Shown in pieces: positions 413-32,377 of a DNA stretch of 34,622 nt. The DNA is taken from assembly GCF_000299935.1 (NCBI RefSeq), contig NZ_AMRL01000032.1, positions 1 to 34,622 of the forward strand, in the 5' to 3' direction. The stretch comes from Oceanibaculum indicum P24. GTDB taxonomy: Bacteria > Pseudomonadota > Alphaproteobacteria > Oceanibaculales > Oceanibaculaceae. Under the pieces are notes generated by a model that was not told the DNA's origin, searched no databases, and worked only from the letters and a program-made list of their open reading frames with translations. How positions within the stretch are numbered: the first letter of the stretch is position 1; every line of letters begins with the position of its first letter. The translations under genes and the position numbers were made by a program.

Positions 413-1144
413 ATGGCGCAAGATATGGTGGTTTCTTCCGGCTGGCGGATCGACAAGGCCATCGACGCGGAGTTCGTCGAGCTGGTCGGCGATGTCCGCG
501 ATTTTGCCGATAATCTGGAAACGCGTTGTCCGGTCGTGCTGGTGCTGGATTGCTCTGCCTCCATGGATGGCGCGCCGATTGCGGAGCTGAATGCCGGCAT
601 TGCCGCCTTCCTGTCCGACATCGCGGCCGATCCGCTGACCCGGCTCCGTCTCGACCTCGCCATCGTCACCTGCGGCGGCGGCATCGGTGTGGCCAAGGGC
701 TTTGCGCGCACCGCGGAGTTTACCGTGCCGGCGCTGGAGGCGGCAGGCGACACGCCGCTGGGTGGGGCACTGCTGGTGGCATTGGACATGATCGAGGCGC
801 GCAAGCGGCTCTATCGCGAGGCCGGCGTGCCCTATCACCGGCCCTGGCTGTTCGCGTTGAGCGATGGCGCGCCGACCGATGGCGAGGTATGGCGGGAGGC
901 GGCGGCGGCAATCCGGCAGGGCGAGCGGGAGAAGAAGCTGGCCTTCTTCGCGGTCGGCGTCGAGGGCGCCGACTTCGCGCTGCTGGCTGAATTGTCACCG
1001 CCCGACCGGCCACCGCTGAAGCTGAAGGGCGTGCGCTTCGGCGCGCTGTTCCGCTGGCTGTCCAGCTCGATGCGGCGGCTCTCCACCGCGCGGGTCGATC
1101 CCGACGATATCGACCTGCCGCCGGTCGAGGGCTGGGCCTGCTGA
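413..1144 (+). CDS. VWA-domain protein, TerY/YegL-like
   Basis: A 243-residue single-domain von Willebrand factor A protein. The MIDAS metal site is readable: D46-C-S48-A-S50 in VLVLDCSASM, T114 in AGDTPLGGAL and D151 in LSDGAPTD. The GDTPLGGAL and LSDGAPTDGE stretches resemble TerY/YegL proteins, known from tellurite-resistance-type operons as metal-dependent protein-interaction modules paired with a kinase and usually a PP2C phosphatase. No signal peptide or membrane segment is seen, so a cytosolic location is inferred. ATG 413 is preferred because the upstream extension runs antisense into dprA and through the intergenic region. The stop overlaps the kinase start by one base (TGATG), indicating translational coupling. 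The specific role is unknown. Confidence 0.85.
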   Translation: MAQDMVVSSGWRIDKAIDAEFVELVGDVRDFADNLETRCPVVLVLDCSASMDGAPIAELNAGIAAFLSDIAADPLTRLRLDLAIVTCGGGIGVAKGFARTAEFTVPALEAAGDTPLGGALLVALDMIEARKRLYREAGVPYHRPWLFALSDGAPTDGEVWREAAAAIRQGEREKKLAFFAVGVEGADFALLAELSPPDRPPLKLKGVRFGALFRWLSSSMRRLSTARVDPDDIDLPPVEGWAC

Positions 1145-2670
1145 TGCCGGTCGATGCCGCCACCGGCCTGCCGGTTACGCTGGGGGCGGTGCTGGCCGAA
1201 GGCGGGGAGGGGCGGCTGTGCGCCACCGATAGCCCGGGACAGGTGGCGAAGCTCTATCACCGGCTCGCCCCGGAACGCGCGGAGAAGCTGGCGGCGCTGC
1301 TGCGCCATCCGGCGCGGTCGTTGGAGGGCGTGGCCTGGCCATCCTCGGCGCTGCGGGACGAGGCGGGGCAGACCATCGGCTTCCTGATGCCGCGGGTCGA
1401 GGGGGCGCAGCCGCTCACCGTACTGGCCAATGCGCGGTTGCGGCTGGCCCACGCGCCCGGCTTCACCTGGTATCATCTGCATGTCGCCGCGCGCCGGCTG
1501 GCCGGTCTTGTGGGGCGGTTGCACGATTCCGGCATCGTCATCGGTGATCTGAAGCCGGAGAACCTGCTGATCGACGCCCGGGCAAGGCTGAGCCTGATCG
1601 ATGCCGATTCCGTGCAGTTCAGTCTGGCCGGCCAGGTGCATCGCTGCGCGGTGGGGGCGGAGGGCTTCGTGCCGCCGGAACTGGTCGGCCAGGACCTCGC
1701 CGCCATCGACCGCAGCCAGAGCCATGACCGTTTCGCGCTGGGCGTGCTGATCCACATGCTGCTGCTGGGGCATCACCCCTTTGCCGGGATCTGGCAGGGG
1801 CCGGACGATCCGCCGGCACTGGATGGGCTGGTGCAGGCCGGCCATTATCCGGGCCTTGCAATCAGTCCGCAGCGGCCCGGGCCGTTCGCGATGACGCCGA
1901 ACGCGCTGCATCCGGCACTGCGCGGGCTGGTGCGGCGCTGCTTCGTGGACGGGCACCGCCGGCCGGAGGCGCGGCCAAGCCCGGCGGAATGGGTAGCGGC
2001 ACTGGACGAGGCGCTTGGCGATCTGGTGCTGTGCGCCGACGATCCTGTTCATGTCATGGGGCACTTTCGGGCCGCATCTGCCGGGCCGTGCCCCTGGTGT
2101 GCGCGCCGCGCGGCGCTGGACATCGACAGCTTCCCCGCCTCGGACGCCGCGCCGGACTTGATTGCCGGCGATCTGCGCAAGGCGCTTCAAGCTGGCGACC
2201 TTATGCGGCAGGCCTTCCTGTGGTCCCACCATCCGTTGCTGTGGCAGCACACCGAGTTCTCAGGCGAGGCCGAGCGTCTGGGCCGGATGGCGGCGGCCCT
2301 GCCGGCGGTTATGCGGCTGAAGGCTGTGCTGGAACGCTCCCCCGACGATGCCGAGGCGCTGGTCGCTGCCTGGCACCGGCTGCCGGACCTTGAGGGCAAC
2401 CCCCTGCTGGAATCATTGCGCCTGCCGGATGGCCTGCCGCTGTCACAGGCCGTTGCCGAGGCAGAAGGGCGGCTGGAACGGCTGAAACGGCTGCGGGTCA
2501 GCTTCGCCGCCGGCCCGCCGACGCCGGAAACGGCCCCGGATCTGGTGGCGGCCTACCGGCTGGCGGCGGATGCCTTCGGGCCGGACAGCCGCTTCCTGCG
2601 GCCTTATGCAAGCCGTGCCGAGGCGGCCGCCGCGCTGATCGGGCAAGGTGCCGGTGGCGGCAAAGCGTGA
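1144..2670 (+). CDS. Serine/threonine protein kinase, YegI-like, with C-terminal CPWC motif
   Basis: 508 residues. Kinase landmarks in order: glycine-rich loop AEGGEGRL (19-25), VAK lysine K36, catalytic loop VIGDLKPENLLID (D135, N140; the usual HRD is IGD), a DFG-equivalent IDADS (D153), a PPE replacing APE (GFVPPEL, about 174-180), and SHDRFALGVLIHMLLLGHHPF (about 193-212). The metal and phosphate residues are present, so it is probably active. After the kinase domain a GHFRAASAGPCPWCARR segment carries the CPWC motif seen in YegI-type kinases, possibly a zinc site, followed by an unassigned helical tail. It overlaps the VWA gene by one base. The known E. coli analogue set yegI-yegK-yegL includes a PP2C phosphatase that is missing here. 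The substrate is unknown. Confidence 0.85.
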   Translation: MPVDAATGLPVTLGAVLAEGGEGRLCATDSPGQVAKLYHRLAPERAEKLAALLRHPARSLEGVAWPSSALRDEAGQTIGFLMPRVEGAQPLTVLANARLRLAHAPGFTWYHLHVAARRLAGLVGRLHDSGIVIGDLKPENLLIDARARLSLIDADSVQFSLAGQVHRCAVGAEGFVPPELVGQDLAAIDRSQSHDRFALGVLIHMLLLGHHPFAGIWQGPDDPPALDGLVQAGHYPGLAISPQRPGPFAMTPNALHPALRGLVRRCFVDGHRRPEARPSPAEWVAALDEALGDLVLCADDPVHVMGHFRAASAGPCPWCARRAALDIDSFPASDAAPDLIAGDLRKALQAGDLMRQAFLWSHHPLLWQHTEFSGEAERLGRMAAALPAVMRLKAVLERSPDDAEALVAAWHRLPDLEGNPLLESLRLPDGLPLSQAVAEAEGRLERLKRLRVSFAAGPPTPETAPDLVAAYRLAADAFGPDSRFLRPYASRAEAAAALIGQGAGGGKA

Positions 2671-2774
2671 CTTCCCGCCAAAGCGCGGTAAAATCATTTC
2701 CAACATCCAAGAGCGGCTACACATGCCGCCAACGGCTGCCTCCGCCCGGCGGAGGGCAAAGACAGGAACCGACA

Positions 2775-4130
2775 ATGTCCAGTGCCGGCGACTTGAAGAG
2801 CAATGGCGCCATGTCCCGGCAGCGCTATACGCAGGACGACCTTGTACCGATCCTGCAGCGGCACAAGCATTTCCTGGAGCGCAAGCGCGGCGGCATCCGG
2901 GCCAATCTGAAGATGGCCGACCTGTCCTATCTGGATTTCACCGGGGCCGACCTGTCTGATGCCGATTTGACCGGCGCCCGCCTGATCGGCGCCACGCTGA
3001 AGAACACCAAGTTCCACGGATCGGTGCTGTTTGCCGCCGATCTGTCGGAGGCTGACCTGACCGGCGCCGACATCAAGAAGTCGGACCTGCGCGGCATCCG
3101 CATGCGCAAGGCCAAGCTGATCGGCGCCCGGGTGATCGAATCCGACCTGCGCGACGGGATGCTGTTCCAGTCCAGCAAGGGCGAGCTGACGCCGATGGAG
3201 AAGGAGACCGGTACCGCCGCCGATGCCCGTTCCATCAATGCGCGCAGCGCCGACCTCAGCGGCTCCAAGCTGTCCAACGCCTTCATCATGCAGAGCGACC
3301 TGACCGACGCCATCATGCGCGGCGCCAAATTCATCCGCGCCGACATGTCGAAGGCGAACATGACCGGCTGCAACCTGCTGGGCGCAGACCTGTCGCACGC
3401 CAACCTCGAAGGCGCGATCCTGCATGGCGCGATCATGAGCCAGGCGACGCTGCTGTCCACCAACCTGAAGGATTCCGACCTGATGGGCGCGATCCTGGAC
3501 GCGGTCGATCTGTCCGTCGCCAAGACCGACAATGCCCGCATGGCGCGCCGGCTGGAGAATGCCTCGGTCAGCCTGAAGAATGCGGTCGAGGAGCATGTGC
3601 TGTGGATCGACAGCGGCGGGCTGGAAGGCAAGCGTGTCGATTTCTCCGAACTCGACATGACCGGCGAGAATATCAGCGACCTCAACCTCGCTGGCGGCAA
3701 GTTCACCTTCGTCGTTCTGAAGAAGGGCAATATGGCGAAGGTCGGCCTGATGATGGCCGATCTGTCCTTCGCTGACCTGCGCGAGACCGATCTGTCCTAT
3801 GCCGATCTGCGCGGCGTGAACCTGTCGCGGGCCACCTTGTCGGGCGCGAACCTGACCGGCGCGCGCCTCGGGCCGGTGCCGATCGAGGGGGCGACCATCG
3901 GTTACTGGCCGTCCAAGCTCAGCCATGCCCGGCTGGATAAGTGCGATTTCTCCGGCGCCGACCTGTTCGCCGCCGATCTGGAAGGGGCTGACCTCACCGG
4001 CGCCAACCTGCGCGGTGCCAACCTCAGCGATGCCGTGCTGCTGGACTCCAACATGACCGACGCCGACATTCGCGGGGCCAAGCTGAATGGCGCCGATGTG
4101 CGCGGCGTGGTCGGCCTGCCGCGCGGCTAG
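2775..4130 (+). CDS. Pentapeptide-repeat protein with two cap motifs
   Basis: 451 residues, mostly A(D/N)LxG-type pentapeptide repeats that should form a right-handed quadrilateral beta-helix. Repeats fill about 44-128, 157-250, 287-365 and 385-447. The breaks hold non-repeat loops (about 129-156, 251-286, 366-384). Two similar charged lead-in motifs precede repeat blocks: LQRHKHFLERKRGGIRANL (27-45) and VEEHVLWIDSGGLEGKRVDF (271-290), suggesting an internal duplication of solenoid caps. The start at 2775 is chosen for its AGGAAC ribosome site at 2764-2769; the longer frame runs back into the kinase gene. It is 104 bases downstream of the kinase and in the same direction, so it may be co-transcribed. 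No signal peptide is seen. Function is unknown; being a kinase substrate or scaffold is only a guess. Confidence 0.85.
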   Translation: MSSAGDLKSNGAMSRQRYTQDDLVPILQRHKHFLERKRGGIRANLKMADLSYLDFTGADLSDADLTGARLIGATLKNTKFHGSVLFAADLSEADLTGADIKKSDLRGIRMRKAKLIGARVIESDLRDGMLFQSSKGELTPMEKETGTAADARSINARSADLSGSKLSNAFIMQSDLTDAIMRGAKFIRADMSKANMTGCNLLGADLSHANLEGAILHGAIMSQATLLSTNLKDSDLMGAILDAVDLSVAKTDNARMARRLENASVSLKNAVEEHVLWIDSGGLEGKRVDFSELDMTGENISDLNLAGGKFTFVVLKKGNMAKVGLMMADLSFADLRETDLSYADLRGVNLSRATLSGANLTGARLGPVPIEGATIGYWPSKLSHARLDKCDFSGADLFAADLEGADLTGANLRGANLSDAVLLDSNMTDADIRGAKLNGADVRGVVGLPRG

Positions 4131-4269: not shown

Positions 4270-4285
4270 TGGCCCGCGCCTTGCT
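4270..4285 (+). promoter_or_regulatory. Sigma-54 (-24/-12) promoter of the hook operon
   Basis: TGGCCCGCGCCTTGCT matches the RpoN consensus TGGCACG-N4-TTGCW, with GG at 4271-4272 and GC at 4283-4284 exactly ten bases apart. Predicted transcription start is near 4295, leaving about 28 bases of leader containing GAGGTG before the ATG at 4323. Sigma-54 control of hook and late flagellar genes is established in alphaproteobacteria such as Caulobacter (via FlbD); its use here is inferred. The rest of the 4131-4322 gap holds no other gene I can support. Confidence 0.85.
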
Positions 4286-4322
4286 GCTGGAAGCCCGACT
4301 TTCATGTGCGAGGTGCGACCCG

Positions 4323-6254
4323 ATGGACCTGCAGAAGACCGACCGGCTTTATAGCGAGGCTGCCTCCTCCCTGTTCGCCCGGCGCGAGACGATGGCTCGC
4401 GACGAGGCGGAGCGCAGTGACGCGTTTCGCAGCTTCCTGAAGGACGCCGAAACACGCCGGGCGGAAGAGCGGCAATCGGCAAGTCGCCGCGAGGATGTGG
4501 CGGCTGCCCGCCGCGACCCGGCCCGCACTGACCGCGTCGAAGATCGTGCAGATCGCCGGGCTGAACACCGGGCCGATCAGCGGGCAGAAAAGCGCGCGGC
4601 AGCGGCGGCGAACGCCACCCCTCCGGCCGAGCGTCCGGCAGATACGACAGCTGCCCAGGCGTCGAAGCAGCCTCAGGACGCAGCCGCTGAAGTTCCGCAG
4701 GAAACCAAGCAGCCGACCGCTACCAAGGCCGCTGACACCAGCGACAATACTGCCAAGGCTGCAGGTCAGAACACGACAGCCCCTGAATCGGCACCGGCGG
4801 AGACGCAGCAGGCTGGTGCGCCTGCGGTGACGGATGCTGCCGAAATGCCCGGCGACATGCCGGAGGTTCCGGAAAGCACTCCGGCCCCGGTTGCGGTTGC
4901 TGCCGGCGACTCTGCCGAAGGCGAGGCCACGCAGGCCGAAGCCGCCGCAAAGACGGTTCAGGCGCCAGCTCCCGTCGCCGATCCGGCCGGGCAGAAAAAG
5001 ACCAAGGCCGACACTGGGGCCGAAACAGCAAATGCGACTGGCAATGCATCAGCCGGCACGGCGCAGGCTGCTGTGAAGGCCAGCGCTGGCGCTCAGAACG
5101 CTGCTGCTCAGGCGACGCCCCCCGCGACTGACGCTCAGGCCGGCGCGGTGGATGCGGCCGCCAGTGATGGCGCAACGAAGACAGTTCAGACGACGGCGCA
5201 GAATGCGGCCGTGCCGACGGTGGCAGGCGAGGCCAAAGAGCAGCCGGTGGAGGCCGCGTCAGCCGACGCGCGCCTCGCCGGTACGCCGCCGGTTCAGTCC
5301 CAGCCTGCAGAGCAGGGGACGCCGGCCCAGGCGCAGAATGGCGCCGCTACCGCCGCTGTTGCAATGGCTGCCGCTGACGGCACGCCGGAGCCGGGCCTCG
5401 AATCCCTGGCGGCGGATGCCGGGCGGAGTGCGCGTGGCGCGGGTGAACCCGCAGCACCTGCCGCTTCCGGCCAGGGCGCCGGCACGCCGGCTGGCGCATC
5501 CTCGTCCGGTGGTGCGCAGGCCAATGCCGGCGGTGGCGGCAACGCCAATGGCCAGGGCAACGGCCACGCCGCCGGCCAGAATGCCGCCGCCAATCAGCCG
5601 CAGCAGGCTGCCGGCGCGGACCGTCCGGGCATGGCCGGGACCACGGCAAATGACAGTTTCACCACCCTGCTGGCCAAGGCCCAGGGCGAGGCGCAGGGCG
5701 CCGAACCGATGGCCGCCGGCACGGCCCGTCCGGGCGAGGGCGTTGTCGCTACGCCGACGGCTTCCGGCACGCCGGGGACACAGGCCGCCAGTGCTGCCGC
5801 TGCCGCGCAGGCATCGGCGCCCGCAGCGCCACGCCCGCCGATGCCGGTCAGCAACCAGGTCGCCATCCAGCTGCACAACGCCGCCAAGGATGATGTGCGC
5901 AAGGTGACGATCCACCTGCGCCCGGAAGCCATGGGCAAGGTCGAGGTGAGCATGGAGGTCGATCAGGCCGGGCGGCTGCAGGCGGTGATCTCCGCCGACA
6001 AGGCGGAAGCGCTGGACTGGCTGCGCCGCGATGCGCACCACCTGGAGCGCGCGCTGCAGGATGCCGGCATGAAAATGGATCAGCAGTCGCTGAGCTTCAA
6101 CCTGAGGGGCGATGGCCAGACGGGTGAAGGCAGCGGCGGCAGCAAGGGCTCTGGCGGGCGCGGTGGCGTCCTCGGCCAGGGCGATGAAATGGTCGAGGCC
6201 CCGGCGGACGGCATCGTGCGTCGCCTGGATGCCCTCGTCGATGTCAGCGTTTAA
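4323..6254 (+). CDS. fliK: Flagellar hook-length control protein (FliK-like)
   Basis: 643 residues. The C-terminal region (about 510-610) is a recognisable Flg_hook domain: VAIQLHNAAKDDVRKVTIHL, then RPEAMGKVEVSMEVDQAGRL, then SADKAEALDWLRRDAHHLE. This domain of FliK switches the export apparatus from hook to filament substrates when the hook reaches its length. The long middle part is low-complexity Ala/Gln/Thr/Gly-rich, as expected for the extended ruler region, and the N-terminal part contains a charged run of RADRRAEHRADQRAEK type. ATG 4323 is chosen because it follows GAGGTG and lies downstream of the sigma-54 promoter; an alternative start at 4281 would sit inside that promoter. It is followed 14 bases later by flgD. 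The ruler segment is poorly conserved, so identity rests on the C-terminus and context. Confidence 0.9.
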   Translation: MDLQKTDRLYSEAASSLFARRETMARDEAERSDAFRSFLKDAETRRAEERQSASRREDVAAARRDPARTDRVEDRADRRAEHRADQRAEKRAAAAANATPPAERPADTTAAQASKQPQDAAAEVPQETKQPTATKAADTSDNTAKAAGQNTTAPESAPAETQQAGAPAVTDAAEMPGDMPEVPESTPAPVAVAAGDSAEGEATQAEAAAKTVQAPAPVADPAGQKKTKADTGAETANATGNASAGTAQAAVKASAGAQNAAAQATPPATDAQAGAVDAAASDGATKTVQTTAQNAAVPTVAGEAKEQPVEAASADARLAGTPPVQSQPAEQGTPAQAQNGAATAAVAMAAADGTPEPGLESLAADAGRSARGAGEPAAPAASGQGAGTPAGASSSGGAQANAGGGGNANGQGNGHAAGQNAAANQPQQAAGADRPGMAGTTANDSFTTLLAKAQGEAQGAEPMAAGTARPGEGVVATPTASGTPGTQAASAAAAAQASAPAAPRPPMPVSNQVAIQLHNAAKDDVRKVTIHLRPEAMGKVEVSMEVDQAGRLQAVISADKAEALDWLRRDAHHLERALQDAGMKMDQQSLSFNLRGDGQTGEGSGGSKGSGGRGGVLGQGDEMVEAPADGIVRRLDALVDVSV

Positions 6255-6268
6255 AGAGGAGAGTTGAG

Positions 6269-6949
6269 ATGGCTGTAGATGGCGTGAGCGGCACCAGCAC
6301 AACGACCGCGACCCGCGACAGTTCGATATCCCAGGCTCAGCTTGCGGATAATTTCGACACTTTCCTGACGCTGCTGACGACGCAGCTGCGCAATCAGGAT
6401 CCGCTGAACCCGATGGATACGCATGAATTCACCAATCAGCTGGTGCTGTTCAGTGGTGTCGAGCAGCAGATCCGGCAGAACCAGAACCTGGAATCGCTGA
6501 TTGCCCTGCAGGTGGTCGGCGAGCAGGCCTCGGCGATGACCTATATCGGCAAGTATGTGACGGCCGAGAGCCAGATCGCGGCCTTGCAGGAAGGCGAGGC
6601 GAACTGGACCTACGTCCTGCCGGAAGGGGCAATCAGCAACACGCTGCGGGTCGTCGACTCCGAGGGCAATGTGGTCCGCACGCTGGACGGCGAGTACGAG
6701 GCCGGCAGGCACGACTTCACCTGGGACGGCAAGGACGATGCCGGCAACCCGCTGCCTGACGGTGCCTATGCGCTGCGTGTCAGCGCGCTGGATCGTGACG
6801 GCAAGGCTGTCAGCGCCGCCATCGGCATGACCTCGCGCGTCACCGGCGTCTCCAAGGATCCTGATGGTCTGGGCCCGGTCCTGTCGCTGGGCGACGGCCT
6901 GAACATCCTGCTGGACAAGGTGATTTCAGTGAAGGAGTCGGCCGCCTGA
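6269..6949 (+). CDS. flgD: Flagellar hook capping/scaffold protein FlgD
   Basis: 226 residues. The N-terminal signature FDTFLTLLTTQLRNQDPLNP with MDTHEFTNQLVLFSGVEQQI is diagnostic of FlgD. The C-terminal half contains the FlgD Ig-like/FlgD-Tudor region (DFTWDGKDDAGNPLPDGAYA). FlgD caps the growing hook and promotes FlgE polymerisation outside the cell; it is exported by the flagellar type III apparatus, consistent with no cleavable signal peptide. A strong AGAGGAG ribosome site precedes the ATG. It lies between fliK and flgE in the same operon, the usual alphaproteobacterial arrangement. Confidence 0.95.
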   Translation: MAVDGVSGTSTTTATRDSSISQAQLADNFDTFLTLLTTQLRNQDPLNPMDTHEFTNQLVLFSGVEQQIRQNQNLESLIALQVVGEQASAMTYIGKYVTAESQIAALQEGEANWTYVLPEGAISNTLRVVDSEGNVVRTLDGEYEAGRHDFTWDGKDDAGNPLPDGAYALRVSALDRDGKAVSAAIGMTSRVTGVSKDPDGLGPVLSLGDGLNILLDKVISVKESAA

Positions 6950-7030: not shown

Positions 7031-8374
7031 ATGAGCGTTCTTGGTGGTCTCTATTCGGGTATCTCGGCGTTGAGCGCCCAGTCCCGCAATTTCGGCATCA
7101 TTTCCGACAACATCGCCAACGTGAACACGATTGGCTACAAGGAGGTCGAGGGCCGATTCTCCAACTTCGTCACCTCGAAGAGCGTGGCGCGTAATTTCTC
7201 GCCCGGTGGCGTGACGCTGCGGCCGTTCTATGACCCGCAGAAGCAGGGCCTGCTGCAGACGTCGGACAGCAAGACCGACATCTCCATCACCGGCAACGGC
7301 TTCTTCGTGGTGAACAAGGCGGCGAGCGCGGCGAACAATTCCGACAGCTTCCTGTTCACCCGCGCCGGTGATTTCACGGCGGACAAGGACGGCAATCTGG
7401 TCAATTCCGGCGGCTACTACCTGCAGGGCTGGCTGCTGAATTCGGATGGCACCATCGTCAATTCCACCAGCCAGGACCAGCTGACCAGCCTGCAGACGGT
7501 GAATGTGGCCGGCTTCTCCTCGGTCGGCCAGCCGACGCAGAATGTGTCGATCACCGCCAACCTGCCGGCAGGCCAGGACAACGCCGCGGTGACGCCGCAT
7601 CAATCGACCAACCTGTCGATCTTCGACTCGCTGGGCGCGCGGCAGACGCTGACCTTCCAGTGGGACAAGACGGCGAACGCCAACGAATGGACGATGACGG
7701 CCGGCATTACCGACAGCACCGGTACCTTCAACGCCATCGCAGGCGCGACCGCGACGGTGCAGTTCTCCGGCGCTGGCGGCCTTACCGGCCCGCTCAGCAC
7801 CGATGCCTTCACGGCGGTGGGTGCGGCCTTCACGCTGAACGCCGATGGTACGTTGGACATTACCATTCCGCAGGCCGACCTCGATGTCTCGGGCGCGGAG
7901 CTGCCGGACGATCTGCCGCTGACCCTTGATCTCGGCACGCCGGGGCAGGCGGATGGTCTGACCCAGTTCTCCGGCGGCTATGAGCTGAAGCTGGCCAACC
8001 AGGATGGCAGCGCGCCGTCCGGCCTGGATCAGGTGATCATCGACGAGAACGGCCTGGTGACAGGTGTGTTCGCCAACGGTCAGACCCGCGCGATCTATCA
8101 GATTCCGACCGCCACCTTCCCGGCGCAGGCGCGTCTGGACCGCGATAACGGCAACGCCTTCTCGATCACCTCGAACTCCGGTGACGTGGTGCTGAACCGG
8201 CCCGGTGTTGGCGCCCACGGCCAGTTGCGTCCGGAAACGCTGGAAAGTTCCACCGCCGATACGGCCGAGGAATTCGCCGACCTGATCATCGCCCAGCGTG
8301 CCTATTCGGCCGCGACCCGCATCGTCACCACCGGCGACGAGATGCTGGACGAAGCGATCCGTATGAAGCGGTAA
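7031..8374 (+). CDS. flgE: Flagellar hook protein FlgE
   Basis: 447 residues. The N-terminus MSVLGGLYSGISALSAQSRN plus IISDNIANVNTIGYKEVEGR is the conserved flagellar rod/hook motif. FTRAGDFTADKDGNLVNSGG with YYLQGW follows, and the C-terminus EEFADLIIAQRAYSAATRIV with TTGDEMLDEAIRMKR is the coiled-coil-forming D0 region. FlgE polymerises into the hook, the flexible joint between rod and filament. AAGGAGC before the ATG is a good ribosome site. The 81-base gap after flgD shows no clear promoter, so co-transcription from the sigma-54 promoter is likely. The gene ends 29 bases before a hairpin terminator. Confidence 0.95.
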   Translation: MSVLGGLYSGISALSAQSRNFGIISDNIANVNTIGYKEVEGRFSNFVTSKSVARNFSPGGVTLRPFYDPQKQGLLQTSDSKTDISITGNGFFVVNKAASAANNSDSFLFTRAGDFTADKDGNLVNSGGYYLQGWLLNSDGTIVNSTSQDQLTSLQTVNVAGFSSVGQPTQNVSITANLPAGQDNAAVTPHQSTNLSIFDSLGARQTLTFQWDKTANANEWTMTAGITDSTGTFNAIAGATATVQFSGAGGLTGPLSTDAFTAVGAAFTLNADGTLDITIPQADLDVSGAELPDDLPLTLDLGTPGQADGLTQFSGGYELKLANQDGSAPSGLDQVIIDENGLVTGVFANGQTRAIYQIPTATFPAQARLDRDNGNAFSITSNSGDVVLNRPGVGAHGQLRPETLESSTADTAEEFADLIIAQRAYSAATRIVTTGDEMLDEAIRMKR

Positions 8375-15988: not shown

Positions 15989-16507
15989 TTAATCTATTAT
16001 CTTGTAATCTGGAAAAAATTTATCTAATATTTCGTTCGTTATTTTAAGCATTTTTCCATATATTTCTTGTGAAAGAATGGCGTCTTTGCAAATTTTATTT
16101 ATATGCATACTTCTATCCTTGACCCTGTGAGAAGTTTTTTTCTCCACTAGCTCTAGTGATCTAAAAATAACAGTAGAGTCACTGACCCTTAAGCCAGAAG
16201 GGTAACAGTGAGATATAGTGTTTCTAGTTTTTAAAATTAATTCAATATCATTCAATAAATCAATTATTATATCATTATAACTAGATAAATCATCTATTTT
16301 AGAAATATTTTCCCTTATAAATTTAATTTTATATTTATTTAACCTGCCCATTTCTCCCATTTCGATATTGGTTTTGGGAAATTTATTAATAATTGTTTGC
16401 CATATATCTAATATGCTTTCTATTAATGACCAGGCTATGATCAAGCTTCCAATTGCTTTGGATAAAGCTTCAATATCATCACTTTTTAATGGAATTTCTT
16501 TAGACAT
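15989..16507 (-). CDS. HEPN-like protein with RNTISH nuclease motif, AT-rich, probably acquired
   Basis: 172 residues, nearly all predicted helical. R95-N-T-I-S-H100 (ILKTRNTISHCYPSG) is an exact Rx4H HEPN motif with the usual polar residue after Arg, placed after a long helical pair. The N-terminal helix SLIIAWSLIESILDIWQTII has the W..IE pattern common in small HEPN-like families. HEPN proteins are metal-independent RNases found as toxins, abortive-infection effectors and CRISPR-associated nucleases. No antitoxin-like gene is adjacent, so it may act alone or be inert. Composition is far from the chromosomal norm. ATG 16507 lacks a clear ribosome site, and no terminator is seen after the stop. 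The exact family is unassigned. Confidence 0.7.
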   Translation of the reverse strand: MSKEIPLKSDDIEALSKAIGSLIIAWSLIESILDIWQTIINKFPKTNIEMGEMGRLNKYKIKFIRENISKIDDLSSYNDIIIDLLNDIELILKTRNTISHCYPSGLRVSDSTVIFRSLELVEKKTSHRVKDRSMHINKICKDAILSQEIYGKMLKITNEILDKFFPDYKIID

Positions 16508-26958: not shown

Positions 26959-29900
26959 TTACGAGCAGCCGGTGGTGCCGCCGCAGGTGTCGCACTTCAG
27001 GCAGGTGCCGTTACGCACCAGCGTGAAGTTGCCGCATTCCGGGCAGCTGTCGCCTTCATAGCCCTTCATGCGCGCCTCGCGGATCTTGTCGAACTTCGCG
27101 TCCACCGCCTCGATCACCTCCTGGCTGACCGACACCGCCGCCGTGGTTCGCGTGGTGGTCGTGGCGAGGCCGTGATCGTGCCCGTGATGTCCATGGTCAT
27201 GGCCGTGGGCGTGATAGCCGTTGGTGCCGTTGGCCTTGGCGGTTTCCGTCAGGCCGCCGGTGAAGACGACGAGGTTGTTGCGCACGAAACCGCGGCTGGT
27301 CACCCGCTCGACGGCGGCAAGCGCCTCGTCCTCGGCGCGGGTCGCATCGCCGGTGCCGCGCCCCACCGTATCCGGCGCCAGGTCGGCCGGTTCGGCATGG
27401 GCAAGGTCGGTGCGGCTCAGATAGCTGACCGCCAGTTCCCGGAAGATATAGTCCAGGATGGAGGTCGCCATCTTGATCGCGTCATTGCCCTCGACCATGC
27501 CCGACGGCTCGAACCGGGTGAAGGTGAAGGCATCGACATATTCGTCCAGCGGCACGCCGTACTGCAGGCCGATGGAGATGGCGATGGCGAAATTGTTCAT
27601 CAGCGAGCGAAAGGCGGCGCCTTCCTTGTGCATGTCGATGAACACCTCGCCGAGGCGGCCATCCTCGTACTCGCCGGTGCGCAGATAGACCTTGTGGCCG
27701 CCGACGATGGCCTTCTGGGTATAGCCCTTGCGCCGGCCCGGCAGCTTCTCGCGGTTGATGACCCGCTCGACGATGCGCTCGACGATCTTCTCGGCGATGA
27801 CCGGTGCGCGCGCGGCGGCCGGTTGCTCGACAATCTCTTCGAACTCCTCAAGGTCCTCGGCGTCCAGCAGGGCGGCCGAGAGCGGCTGCGACAGCTTGGA
27901 GCCGTCGCGGTACAGCGCGTTCGCCTTGATGCCCAGCTTCCAGGACAGCAGATAGGCCTCGGCGCAATCCTCGACCGTCGCCGCATTCGGCATGTTGATG
28001 GTCTTGGAGATGGCGCCGGAGATGAAGGGCTGTGCCGCCGCCATCATGCGGATGTGGCTCTCCACCGACAGGAAGCGCTTGCCGATGCGGCCGCACGGGT
28101 TGGCGCAGTCGAACACCGGCAGGTGTTCGTCCTTCAGGCCGGGCGCGCCCTCCAGCGTCATGGCGCCGCTGCAGTAGGTGTTGGCGGCCTCGATGTCGGC
28201 CTTGGAGAAGCCCAGACCCGCCAGCATGTCGAAATTCATGTCGTCGAGCTGCGCCTGGGCGAAGCCCAGCACGTCGCGGCAGAATTCCTCGCCGAAGGTC
28301 CATTTGTTGAACACGAACTTGATGTCGAAGGCGCTGGCGAGGCTCGCCTCCAGCTTTTCCAGCGCCTCTTCGGTGAAGCCCTTGGCCTTCAGCTTCGCAT
28401 GGTCCACGCCAGGGGCGTTCTTCAGGCTCTGATGGCCAACGGCGTAGCGCACGATCTTCTCGATCGTGGCTTCGTCATAGCCCAGCACCTTCAGCGCCTG
28501 CGGCACCATGCGGTTGATGATCTTGAAGTAGCCGCCGCCGGCCAGCTTCTTGAACTTCACCAGCGCGAAATCGGGCTCGATGCCGGTGGTGTCGCAATCC
28601 ATGACCAGGCCGATGGTGCCGGTCGGCGCGATGACCGAGGTCTGCGCGTTGCGGTAGCCATGCGCCTCGCCCAGCGCCAGCGCGTCGTCCCAGGCCAGCT
28701 TTGCCGCGCGGACCAGCGCCTGGTCCGGGCAGTTGGCGGCATCCAGTGGGACCGGCGTCACTTCCAGCGCCTCATAGCCTTCGGTGGCGCTGTGCGCGGC
28801 CAGCCGGTGGTTGCGGATGACACGCAGCATGTGCGCGGCGTTCTTCTTGTAGCCGGGGAAGGCGCCCAGCTCCTGCGCCATCTCGGCGGAGGTGGCATAG
28901 GCACGGCCGGTCATCACCGCGGTCAGCGCGGCGCACAGCGCGCGGCCCTTGTCGCTGTCATAGCCGAGGCCCATGGACATCAGCAGGCCGCCGATATTGG
29001 CGTAGCCGAGGCCCAGCGTGCGGTACTCGTAGGACAGCTTGGCGATTTCCTTGGACGGGAACTGCGCCATCAGCACGGAGACTTCCAGCGTCAGCGTCCA
29101 CAGCCGTACTGCATGCTCGTAGCCGGCGATATCGAACCCACCATCCGCCTTACGGAAGGTCATCAGGTTCAGCGACGCCAGGTTGCAGGCCGTGTCGTCC
29201 AGGAACATGTATTCCGAGCACGGGTTGGAGGCGTTGATGCGCCCGCCTTCCGGGCAGGTATGCCACTCGTTGATCGTGCTGTCGTACTGGATGCCAGGAT
29301 CGGCGCAGGCCCAGGCGGCATAGCTGATGCGGTCCATCAGCTCCTTCGCCTTCAGCCGCTTGTGCAGCTTGCCGTCGGTGCGGCGCACCAGATCCCAGTC
29401 GCCGTCGGTCTCGACAGCGCGCAGGAATTCGTTGGTCAGGCGCACGGAATTGTTCGAGTTCTGGCCGGAGACGGTCAGATAGGCCTCGGAATCCCAGTCC
29501 GTGTCATAGGTGCGGAACTCCATGGCGGTGAAGCCCTGGCGCGCGAACTGGATGGTGCGCTGGATCATGTTCTCGGCGACCAGCGCGCTGCGCGCCTCGA
29601 AGATCGCCTTCTTCAGAACGCGGTTCTGCTTCGGATCGAAGCGCGAATCGTCGTCACCTTCCTGACAGGCAGCCATGACGGCGGTCAGGTGCTTCTGGTT
29701 GATCTTGGAGCCGGTCACCAGCGAGGCGACCTTCTGCTCCTCATTCACCTTCCAGTCGATATAGGCCTCGATATCGGGATGGTCGATATCGACCGTCACC
29801 ATCTTGGCGGCGCGCCGCGTGGTACCGCCGGACTTGATGGCGCCCGCCGCGCGGTCGCCGATCTTCAGGAAGCTCATCAGGCCGGACGACTTGCCGCCGC

Positions 29901-30639
29901 CGGACAGCCGCTCGCCCTCGCCGCGCAGCTTCGAGAAGTTGGTGCCAGTGCCGGAGCCGTATTTGAACAGCCGGGCCTCGCGGACCCACAGATCCATGAT
30001 GCCGCCGTCATTCACCAGATCGTCGCCGACCGACTGGATAAAGCAGGCATGCGGCTGCGGATGTTCGTAGGCGGAGTTGGACTTCACCAGCTTGCCGGAC
30101 TTGAAGTCCACATAGTGGTGGCCCTGCGCCGGGCCGTCGATGCCATAGGCCCAGTGCAGGCCGGTGTTGAACCATTGCGGGGAGTTCGGCGCCGCCATCT
30201 GGGCCGCCAGCATGAAGCGCATCTCGTCGAAGTAGGCGCGGGCGTCCTCTTCCGCATCGAAATAGCCGCCCTTCCAGCCCCAGTAGGTCCAGGTACCGGC
30301 CAGCCGGTCGAACACCTGCTTGGCGCTCTCCTCATGCGTGGTGCGGTCCTCGGGCGCCAGCGTGTCCAGCTTCTTGGCGTCCGGCGCCTTGCGCCACAGC
30401 CAGTCGGGAACGTCCTTTTCCACCACCGGGGTCAGCGCCACCGGTACGCCGGCCTTGCGGAAATATTTCTGCGCCAGGATATCGCAGGCGACCTGCGACC
30501 AGCTCTCCGGCACCTCGATATCCTTCAGCTGGAAGACGATGGAGCCATCCGGATTGCGGATTTCGCTGGTCGTCCTGCGGAAGGAAAGCGCGGCATAGGC
30601 ATCCTTGCCGGCCTCGGTGAAGCGACGTTCGATCTTCAT
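26959..30639 (-). CDS. nrdJ: Adenosylcobalamin-dependent (class II) ribonucleotide reductase
   Basis: 1226 residues from ATG 30639, preceded by GAGGGGAAC. The radical site is N472-P-C474-S-E476, within [32 protein letters not shown] supplies an upstream redox Cys, and the C-terminus carries CPEC, CLKC and a terminal CGGTTGCS pair expected for zinc binding and thiol exchange. It reduces ribonucleotides to deoxyribonucleotides using B12, with or without oxygen. Between the catalytic body and the zinc tail there is a His-rich stretch (residues 1143-1156, 8 His in 14). The in-frame extension to 30843 is rejected for lack of a ribosome site and non-conserved sequence. It has its own terminator. 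No recognisable B12 riboswitch is seen in the leader. Confidence 0.97.
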
Positions 30640-30982
30640 AATGTTCCCCTCGGTCCCCTCGGCACCCGCAGCGTCTCTCCGTGCCTGGATACGCTGCTGG
30701 TCCGTATGATCTGTCGTCCTGAATGGCGACCGACGGTTTCGATCGCCTCGTCGCCGGATGCGAGGCACCCTATATCTAGCGGCGGAGAACAAGTGTGCCA
30801 CAAGCGCTGGCGTGTTCAACTGCATTTTGTATGTTGACAGCAATTAACCACATCAGCTGGTTTCGCGTGATGGCAGGACTGGCGGATTATCGCCCCCTGC
30901 AGCGCCCGCCGGGCTGGACGGATGGCCGCGAGGGTGCAATATTCCGGGCACTTCGTTGCCTGCATGAAGGACGGACCAGATC
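30640..30982. promoter_or_regulatory. Divergent nrdJ / NDUFA12 regulatory region
   Basis: 343 bases with no supported gene. It must hold promoters in both directions. An AT-richer core lies at 30765-30860, including a TTGACA (30834-30839, plus strand) without a good -10 at 17 bases, and a TAGATA on the minus strand inside the NrdR-like site. The nrdJ leader from there to the ATG is about 125 bases. Confidence 0.55.
30767..30782. promoter_or_regulatory. Possible NrdR box upstream of nrdJ
   Basis: ACCCTATATCTAGCGG matches 12 of 16 positions of the NrdR-box consensus form ACACTATATATAGTGT. NrdR represses ribonucleotide reductase genes and normally binds two boxes about three helical turns apart. 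I could not find a convincing second box, so this is tentative. Confidence 0.3.
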
Positions 30983-31342
30983 ATGGCGGATATCGGCACC
31001 CGCTTGTACACGTGGCTGAACGGCGAAAAGGTCGGCGAGGACCAGTTCGGCAACCTGTATTATCGCGGCAAGAAGGCGGCCAACGGCCAGCGCGACAAGC
31101 GCTGGGTGGTCTATAAGGGCGAGCCGGAGGCCTCCAAGGTGCCGCCGGCCTGGCATGCCTGGCTGCATTACACGACCGATATCCTGCCGACCGGCGCTGA
31201 ACAGATGGCGAAGCCGTGGCAGAAGGAACATCTGCCGAATCTGAGCGGCACCGACCTCGCCTACCGTCCGCCCGGCCATGTGCTGAGCGGTGGCAAGCGT
31301 GACAAGGCCACGGGCGACTACGAGGCCTGGCGCCCGGAATGA
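30983..31342 (+). CDS. NDUFA12-family complex I accessory subunit
   Basis: 119 residues. IGTRLYTWLNGEKVGEDQFG, NLYYRGKK, RWVVYKGEPEASKVPPAWHA and WLHYTTDILP are the core of the NDUFA12/B17.2 family. This is a small peripheral subunit of respiratory complex I found in mitochondria and alphaproteobacteria. It is soluble, with no signal peptide. An AAGGACGGA lies upstream of the ATG with long spacing. It is followed by mlaD (46-base gap), a conserved alphaproteobacterial order. Confidence 0.95.
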   Translation: MADIGTRLYTWLNGEKVGEDQFGNLYYRGKKAANGQRDKRWVVYKGEPEASKVPPAWHAWLHYTTDILPTGAEQMAKPWQKEHLPNLSGTDLAYRPPGHVLSGGKRDKATGDYEAWRPE

Positions 31343-31388
31343 GGGCTTCGGACATTAAGATAGCGGGCAATACAGCGGGAGCGCGGCG

Positions 31389-31919
31389 ATGCATCGCAGC
31401 CTGATCGAGACGGTGATGGGCGCCGTCGTGCTGGTGGTTGCCGGCCTGTTCGTCGTTTTCGCCTTTTCCGCGGCCGATCTGCGGGCGGTCGGCGGCTATA
31501 TGGTCACGGCCTCCTTCGAGCAGACGACCGGCCTCAATGTCGGGTCGGATGTGCGCATCAGTGGCATCAAGGTCGGGTCGGTGGTGAGCCAGCAGCTCGA
31601 CCCCGAGACTTACCTCGCGCGCATCACGCTCAGCATCGACACGGCGGTGAAGCTGCCGCGCGACACCATCGCCAAGGTGGCGTCGGAAGGGCTGCTGGGC
31701 GGCAGCTACATGCAGCTTATCCCCGGTGGCGACGACCAGATGATCGAGGCGGGCGGCCGCATCGCCTATACCCAGTCCTCCGTCGATCTGATGGATCTGC
31801 TGGGCCGCTTCGTCTTCACCGCCGCCGAGAGCCAGGGCAGCAACCAGTCCGGTGGCGATCAGTCTGGCGGCAACCAGTCCGGAGGCAACACGCCCGTTCC
31901 CACCGCGCCGCTGAAATAG
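31389..31919 (+). CDS. mlaD: MlaD-like MCE-domain lipid transport protein
   Basis: 176 residues. An N-terminal anchor (about 9-28, VMGAVVLVVAGLFVVFAFSA) is followed by one MCE domain: GYMVTASFEQTTGLNVGSDV, RISGIKVGSV, then KVASEGLLGGSYMQLIPGG. MlaD forms the periplasmic hexamer that passes phospholipids between the MlaFE transporter and MlaC. The mlaE/F/C genes are not in the window, so they must be elsewhere. The tail contains three QSGG repeats. GGGAG precedes the ATG. It lies between NDUFA12 and DUF2155 and is likely co-transcribed. Confidence 0.9.
   Translation: MHRSLIETVMGAVVLVVAGLFVVFAFSAADLRAVGGYMVTASFEQTTGLNVGSDVRISGIKVGSVVSQQLDPETYLARITLSIDTAVKLPRDTIAKVASEGLLGGSYMQLIPGGDDQMIEAGGRIAYTQSSVDLMDLLGRFVFTAAESQGSNQSGGDQSGGNQSGGNTPVPTAPLK
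31842..31886 (+). repeat. Three 15-bp tandem repeats in the mlaD tail
   Basis: Three copies of a 15-base unit encode NQSGG, DQSGG and NQSGG. The units differ at a few third positions. The encoded stretch is a flexible, uncharged linker after the MCE domain and is likely to vary in copy number between strains. Confidence 0.7.
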
Positions 31920-31954
31920 CGGAACCGGCGGTCCACGGCATCGTTATCCAGCGC

Positions 31955-32377
31955 ATGTCCAACCCACTTCTGTCCTCTCTTCGCCGCCATTCCCTGCCTG
32001 CCCTGCTGGTCATGGCAGGGGGGCTGTGCCTCATGTCAGTGTCGGCGGCGGCGCAGGACCGGCCGACCTTCACCCCCTATCCGGTGGCGGTGCTGCAGGG
32101 GCTGGACAAGATCACCGCGCGGATATCCACCTTCGAGGCGCCGGTCGAGCAGCCTGTCGTCTTCGGCTCATTGGAGATCATGGTGCGGACCTGCCAGAAG
32201 CGTCCGCCGGAGGAACCGCCGGAGAGTGCCGCCTTCCTGGAGATCACCGAACAGAAGCCGGGCGAGGCGGCGAGCCGTCTGTTCACCGGCTGGATGTTCG
32301 CCTCAAGCCCGGCGCTGAACGGGTTGCAGCACCCGGTCTATGACGTCTGGCTGCTGGACTGCAAGAGGGCTGAATAG
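31955..32377 (+). CDS. DUF2155 exported protein
   Basis: 140 residues with a signal peptide (basic SLRRH, hydrophobic LPALLVMAGGLCLMSVS, likely cleavage after A33 in AAAQD). The mature part VAVLQGLDKITARISTFEAP, FGSLEIMVRTCQKRPPEEPP and FTGWMFASSPALNGLQHPVY with DVWLLDC is the DUF2155 core with two cysteines that may form a disulfide. It is periplasmic by inference and its function is unknown. It is regularly found beside mlaD and aat in alphaproteobacteria. There is no obvious ribosome site before ATG 31955. The last 40 bases overlap the end of aat on the other strand. Confidence 0.9.
   Translation: MSNPLLSSLRRHSLPALLVMAGGLCLMSVSAAAQDRPTFTPYPVAVLQGLDKITARISTFEAPVEQPVVFGSLEIMVRTCQKRPPEEPPESAAFLEITEQKPGEAASRLFTGWMFASSPALNGLQHPVYDVWLLDCKRAE

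Follow-up and report, generated by a model that had tools for sequence, protein, structure and literature searches.

A YegL–YegI-type VWA protein and kinase pair that has lost its PP2C phosphatase in the genus Oceanibaculum

VWA proteins of the YegL/TerY type are commonly encoded with a Ser/Thr kinase and a PP2C-type phosphatase. In a 34,622-nucleotide stretch of Oceanibaculum indicum P24 (NZ_AMRL01000032.1; hereafter the window) the phosphatase gene is missing from such a set, and a large pentapeptide-repeat protein is encoded next to the remaining pair. The locus therefore raises the question of what became of the third gene, and whether the pentapeptide protein has taken its place. On balance we think that the pair is what remains of a YegL-PphC-YegI triad after loss of the PP2C gene, that it would work as a one-way or slow switch with the type VI secretion system (T6SS) as its most likely client, and that the pentapeptide protein would be a separate neighbour. 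The window is the entire contig 32 of an alphaproteobacterial genome of 3.95 Mb (71 contigs, 98% complete), and the pair is made up as follows (aa, amino acids; MIDAS, metal-ion-dependent adhesion site).

413..1144, + strand: VWA protein of the YegL/TerY type, 243 aa, intact MIDAS (Pfam VWA, YegL identity, alignment).
1144..2670, + strand: Ser/Thr protein kinase of the YegI type, 508 aa (Pfam Pkinase, YegI identity, invariant residues).
2032..2100, + strand: codons for C297, H307, C316 and C319 of the kinase, a probable zinc-binding knuckle including CPWC (alignment; zinc binding inferred).

The kinase was used as query against 385 genomes of the class (match threshold E≤0.001) and the VWA protein against 398 genomes of the phylum, and reading the flanks after both searches gave 22 comparable loci outside the genus, which is represented in our collection by four genomes (G000, the window's own, and G001, G002 and G003) and is the sole genus of its order there. 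VWA, PP2C and kinase genes occur together at 21 of these 22 loci, as a preliminary description of the window had expected of TerY/YegL-like proteins. Twenty outside loci hold the VWA-PP2C-kinase order on one strand or nearly so, exceptions to the order being G456 (VWA-kinase-PP2C) and G095 (kinase gene divergent), and the G352 triad carries an extra gene between PP2C and kinase. In all four congeners the kinase gene directly follows the VWA gene; none (0/4) has the triad, and no PP2C gene lies between or around the two. The neighbourhood survey of kinase homologues that had been proposed earlier thus found PP2C absent only from the four congeners and from G150. The latter, the 22nd locus (L044:6111-8084), encodes a YegI-type kinase with neither a VWA nor a PP2C gene in the 15 kb examined, and is a second, independent reduction of the triad.

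A phosphatase gene elsewhere in these genomes was also looked for. Neither the PF13672 profile nor the PP2C protein of a relative found a match in the four congeneric genomes, PF00481 not having been searched separately; the only trace was one chance-level match in G002 (E=0.157), while the control organisms responded and PF13672 recognised the relative's PP2C with E=2.7e-46. A PP2C remnant inside the pair was considered and rejected, as both proteins align end to start with their counterparts, which relatives encode in separate genes. In a tree of VWA protein and kinase the pair nests among loci that have PP2C, so that loss of the phosphatase is simpler than independent gain. The loss of the PP2C_2-family phosphatase is real, lineage-specific and ancestral to the genus, and the earlier description of the locus as a reduced signalling module without a phosphatase stands.

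Both remaining genes are intact. The VWA protein matches Pfam VWA with E=1.1e-4, a little below the curated cut-off, and shares 48.8% identity with E. coli YegL over 215 aa; its MIDAS residues (D46xS48xS50, T114 and D151) align with those of all relatives, in agreement with the TerY/YegL-like protein with intact MIDAS first described. Its stop codon overlaps the kinase start by one base (TGATG, TGA/ATG). The kinase (Pfam Pkinase, E=2.2e-12; 31.6% identity with E. coli YegI over 329 aa) keeps K36, D135, D153 and D195, which are invariant among 15 aligned relatives. Its CPWC tail is part of a C297-x9-H307-x8-C316-x2-C319 set behind the kinase domain, likewise invariant in the 15 kinases and present in YegI, and this Cys3-His set is probably a zinc-binding knuckle. 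The coupling, catalytic residues and CPWC tail noted at the outset were all confirmed, and no membrane helix is clearly predicted in the window kinase.

Ratios of nonsynonymous to synonymous substitution (dN/dS, by YN00) are 0.04-0.08 for the VWA gene and 0.11-0.18 for the kinase gene. These values bear on the idea that the pair is a functionless, decaying remnant left after the phosphatase was lost, for which one could cite the length of the branch on which the genus sits (0.94 changes per column) and the fast-evolving kinase tail, the least constrained part of the protein, with 50% identity between G000 and G003. Yet the frames are open in four species, dN/dS is well below 1, and all catalytic and MIDAS residues as well as the Cys/His set are retained. 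Both genes are therefore under purifying selection and not decaying, which already contradicts the idea of a relic and makes it highly improbable.

Comparison with known systems places the pair beside the E. coli genes, which run in the order yegL-pphC-yegJ-yegI (pphC is yegK) and whose PphC dephosphorylates YegI, according to PMC13232886, which cites Rajagopalan 2018. The pair shares with them YegL/YegI homology, the same C-H-CPWC set and a VWA gene placed before the kinase gene, but it lacks a pphC-type phosphatase, and its kinase is shorter (508 against 648 aa in YegI) and without the predicted membrane helix. The TerY-P triad of Anantharaman et al. 2012, as described in PMC11090510, likewise resembles the pair in its TerY-like VWA protein with intact MIDAS and its Ser/Thr kinase with a C-terminal zinc-ligand motif. 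It differs in that the window has no PP2C, a single Cys3-His set that is at most a putative zinc ribbon, and no restriction or tellurite-resistance genes near the pair. As the defining PP2C gene was sought and not found, the pair is not counted as a member of that triad; it is a YegL-YegI pair that lost PphC and derives from a TerY-P-like triad.

Other comparisons were less specific. Among solved structures the kinase retrieved only generic eukaryotic kinases and the VWA protein nothing, and a peptide-pattern scan of genome contigs gave two distant actinobacterial kinases and nothing else. The curated defence models of PADLOC matched neither the VWA nor the pentapeptide protein and gave the kinase generic kinase matches only; the VWA and PP2C proteins of true triads also match no PADLOC model, so the library may not cover such systems.

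The second half of the question concerns the pentapeptide gene and the other neighbours of the pair.

2667..2694, + strand: promoter-like GTGACT-N16-TAAAAT spanning the stop codon of the kinase gene; it probably serves the pentapeptide gene (consensus scan).
2775..4130, + strand: 451-aa pentapeptide-repeat protein next to the pair, putative module member at most (Pfam Pentapeptide).
4270..4286, + strand: sigma-54-like -24/-12 element TGGCCCG-N4-TTGCTG before fliK (a single exact match in the window).
4323..6254, + strand: fliK, start ATG 4323; neighbour, outside the module (Pfam Flg_hook).
6269-6949, + strand: flgD; neighbour, outside the module (Pfam FlgD).
7031-8374, + strand: flgE; neighbour, outside the module (Pfam FlgE).
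About 1-273, - strand: dprA, truncated at the contig end to its N-terminal part; neighbour, outside the module (translation).

The pentapeptide protein is a clear repeat protein (Pfam Pentapeptide, E=6.9e-71; 32 adjacent repeat pairs, where shuffling gives 0.4 on average), which in the comparison with solved structures retrieved designed repeat proteins and cyanobacterial pentapeptide proteins, and its gene has a dN/dS of 0.03-0.06 where computable. The preliminary description had proposed that this solenoid replaces or supplements the third partner of the module, whether as a substrate, a scaffold or an effector. The gene does adjoin the pair in all four congeners, at a gap of roughly 45-105 bases, though the DNA upstream of the pair varies by species; cyanobacteria have kinases with fused pentapeptide repeats, SpkB among them (PMC2176072); and the pentapeptide orthologue of G099 adjoins another kinase-fold gene, a probable pseudokinase. 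Outside the genus, however, none of the triads (0/21) has a pentapeptide gene beside it, and tblastn of the class triads finds none, so that the suggested check on conservation came out positive within the genus and negative beyond it. Where the contig permits a check, fliK adjoins the pentapeptide gene equally faithfully; the adjacency may therefore be plain inherited gene order.

The wider distribution of the family does not favour a partnership either. It is large and multi-copy, with at least four copies per congener, and the window protein shows full-length homology with alphaproteobacterial pentapeptide proteins of 450 aa, one subfamily of which lies beside mmcB-like genes. Within this family it falls on a separate branch, whose sole outside member in the sample, and nearest outside relative in the tree, is the protein of G099 (support 100; 52% identity), a genome in which no kinase match was found at E≤0.001. 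Our literature search found nothing on this pentapeptide family near flagellar genes. On contig 30 of G000 (L099:7202-9015) a paralogous pentapeptide subfamily is followed by a MmcB-like gene, and the same arrangement recurs in two or more further families (L084, L085).

The pentapeptide gene also appears to be expressed separately. Translation most likely starts at ATG 2775 and not at GTG 2667, since in G002 and G003 stop codons interrupt the frame of the latter; a gap of 104 bases then follows the kinase gene. This gap is poorly conserved apart from the element GTGACT-N16-TAnAnT, which keeps identical spacing in the four species; the form in the window has 9 of 12 consensus matches, and the promoter scan gave three promoter-like sites in the region against 0.2 expected per shuffle. 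As G002 and G003 carry the element inside the end of the kinase gene, within its last codons and in a reading frame other than in G000, what is conserved appears to be the DNA itself, not the encoded protein, and this suggests that the pentapeptide gene has its own promoter. The position of the sigma-54-like element before fliK is conserved in the four species as well, and the simplest reading would be three transcription units, one for the pair, one for the pentapeptide gene and one for the flagellar genes, although transcripts of the pair may run on into the pentapeptide gene. The genus-only adjacency, the lack of any triad with such a neighbour, the G099 orthologue without a kinase match and the promoter-like element together tell against the solenoid as a third-partner replacement, which we regard as unlikely; the more specific version, in which a one-way phosphorylation mark on a neighbouring DNA-mimic-like solenoid (as client or scaffold) replaces the reversible three-part switch, seems slightly less likely again. 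Most likely the pentapeptide protein is a separately expressed neighbour.

A link to DNA uptake or stress had further been hinted at from the nearness of dprA. Upstream of the pair, dprA is found in two of the four congeners only (G000 and G001). In G002 a GntR-type regulator takes this place, and in G003 the short piece of upstream DNA available bears another, unassigned coding sequence. As the upstream DNA differs in G002 and G003, the dprA neighbourhood is accidental and there is no conserved dprA linkage that would speak for a competence or DNA uptake module. Elsewhere in the window a stretch of low G+C content (15989-16507; 0.45 against about 0.65), with a 172-aa open reading frame (ORF) on the - strand, is perhaps acquired DNA. 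The genes for a DUF2155 protein, MlaD and a B12-dependent ribonucleotide reductase in the window (26959-32377) are the same as those that adjoin the G108 triad (L040:10734-16000).

What the kinase might act on is suggested by its relatives. The triads of G237, G352 and G095 lie within T6SS clusters (TssB, C, E, F, G, K, L, M or A) and that of G125 lies beside vgrG; in the tree of VWA protein and kinase these four, two f106 loci, G137 and the window's genus form one clade. T6SS genes are thus in or beside the triad at four of the seven outside loci of the clade. Membrane helices are mostly absent from the kinases of this clade and present in YegI and most kinases of the other group. All four congeners encode TssC, within a TssB-C-Hcp-E-F-G-VgrG cluster; among the ORFs of that cluster no kinase or PP2C was recognised, nor by eye any FHA protein, no genome search having been aimed at FHA domains. 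A precedent is found in Pseudomonas, where PpkA (a kinase with a VWA domain) and PppA (a PP2C) control the T6SS through Fha1 (PMC3224232). The likeness lies in the set of kinase, VWA domain and PP2C and in the T6SS clusters in which relatives of the pair sit; the difference is that the window's VWA domain is a separate cytosolic protein, that there is no PppA, and that the pair is unlinked to T6SS genes. By analogy with these relatives, we tentatively suggest that the T6SS may be the most likely client of the pair; our literature search found no link of TerY-P to T6SS. The extra gene of the T6SS-linked G352 triad (L037:5982-7031) is Fic-like, a name given from sequence reading only. The kinase-fold protein encoded beside the G099 pentapeptide gene (L083:10002-12017) has 670-680 aa and lacks the usual catalytic residues (HRD reads HGG); its orthologues in G000 (contig 35, L126:8573-10618) and G001 are encoded close beyond the T6SS cluster.

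Several points weigh against a phosphatase-free pair serving the T6SS. Support for the clade that unites it with the T6SS-linked triads is moderate (90/96), three of the seven outside loci have no T6SS gene within the stretch examined, and the T6SS genes of the pair's own genome sit on other contigs, not near it; on the phosphatase side there is the PF00481 family mentioned above, and each congener encodes one SpoIIE-type (PF07228) phosphatase, of the PP2C superfamily, which could substitute for the lost enzyme. A rival reading is a YegI-like, self-regulating housekeeping kinase pathway unrelated to T6SS, with the SpoIIE-type protein supplying the phosphatase function. T6SS genes are indeed absent beside E. 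coli yegL-pphC-yegI and beside most triads that fall outside the T6SS-linked clade. But the pair groups with the T6SS-linked triads, its kinase is without a clear membrane helix like most of that group and unlike YegI, and the SpoIIE protein, in G000 a HAMP-SpoIIE protein, is an ordinary membrane sensor with no linkage to the pair. We hold this pathway to be rather unlikely.

The reading that we prefer, the triad remnant with a one-way or slow switch, can be put as a sequence of steps whose biochemistry, like the T6SS client, we infer from sequence. The middle PP2C gene of the triad was lost in the ancestor of the genus, and positions 413-2670 are what is left. The soluble kinase with its Cys3-His zinc knuckle would phosphorylate Ser/Thr residues on itself and on clients, and the co-translated VWA protein may bind the kinase or a client through its Mg-dependent MIDAS face and so control activity. 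With no dedicated phosphatase, the mark would fade only slowly, through dilution or the action of some unrelated phosphatase, and the switch would be one-way or slow. Its likeliest client would be the T6SS, whose genes these genomes carry at other places, and the pentapeptide protein would be a neighbour with a separate promoter.

The VWA-PP2C-kinase triad is very constant across the sampled loci, although even for the E. coli genes it is not clear what the triad does. In this lineage nature has, in effect, deleted the phosphatase alone and kept the other two genes under selection. The lineage offers a test of whether reversibility depends on the phosphatase or whether the kinase can be restrained by the VWA protein on its own, and the T6SS-linked relatives supply a concrete client to examine.

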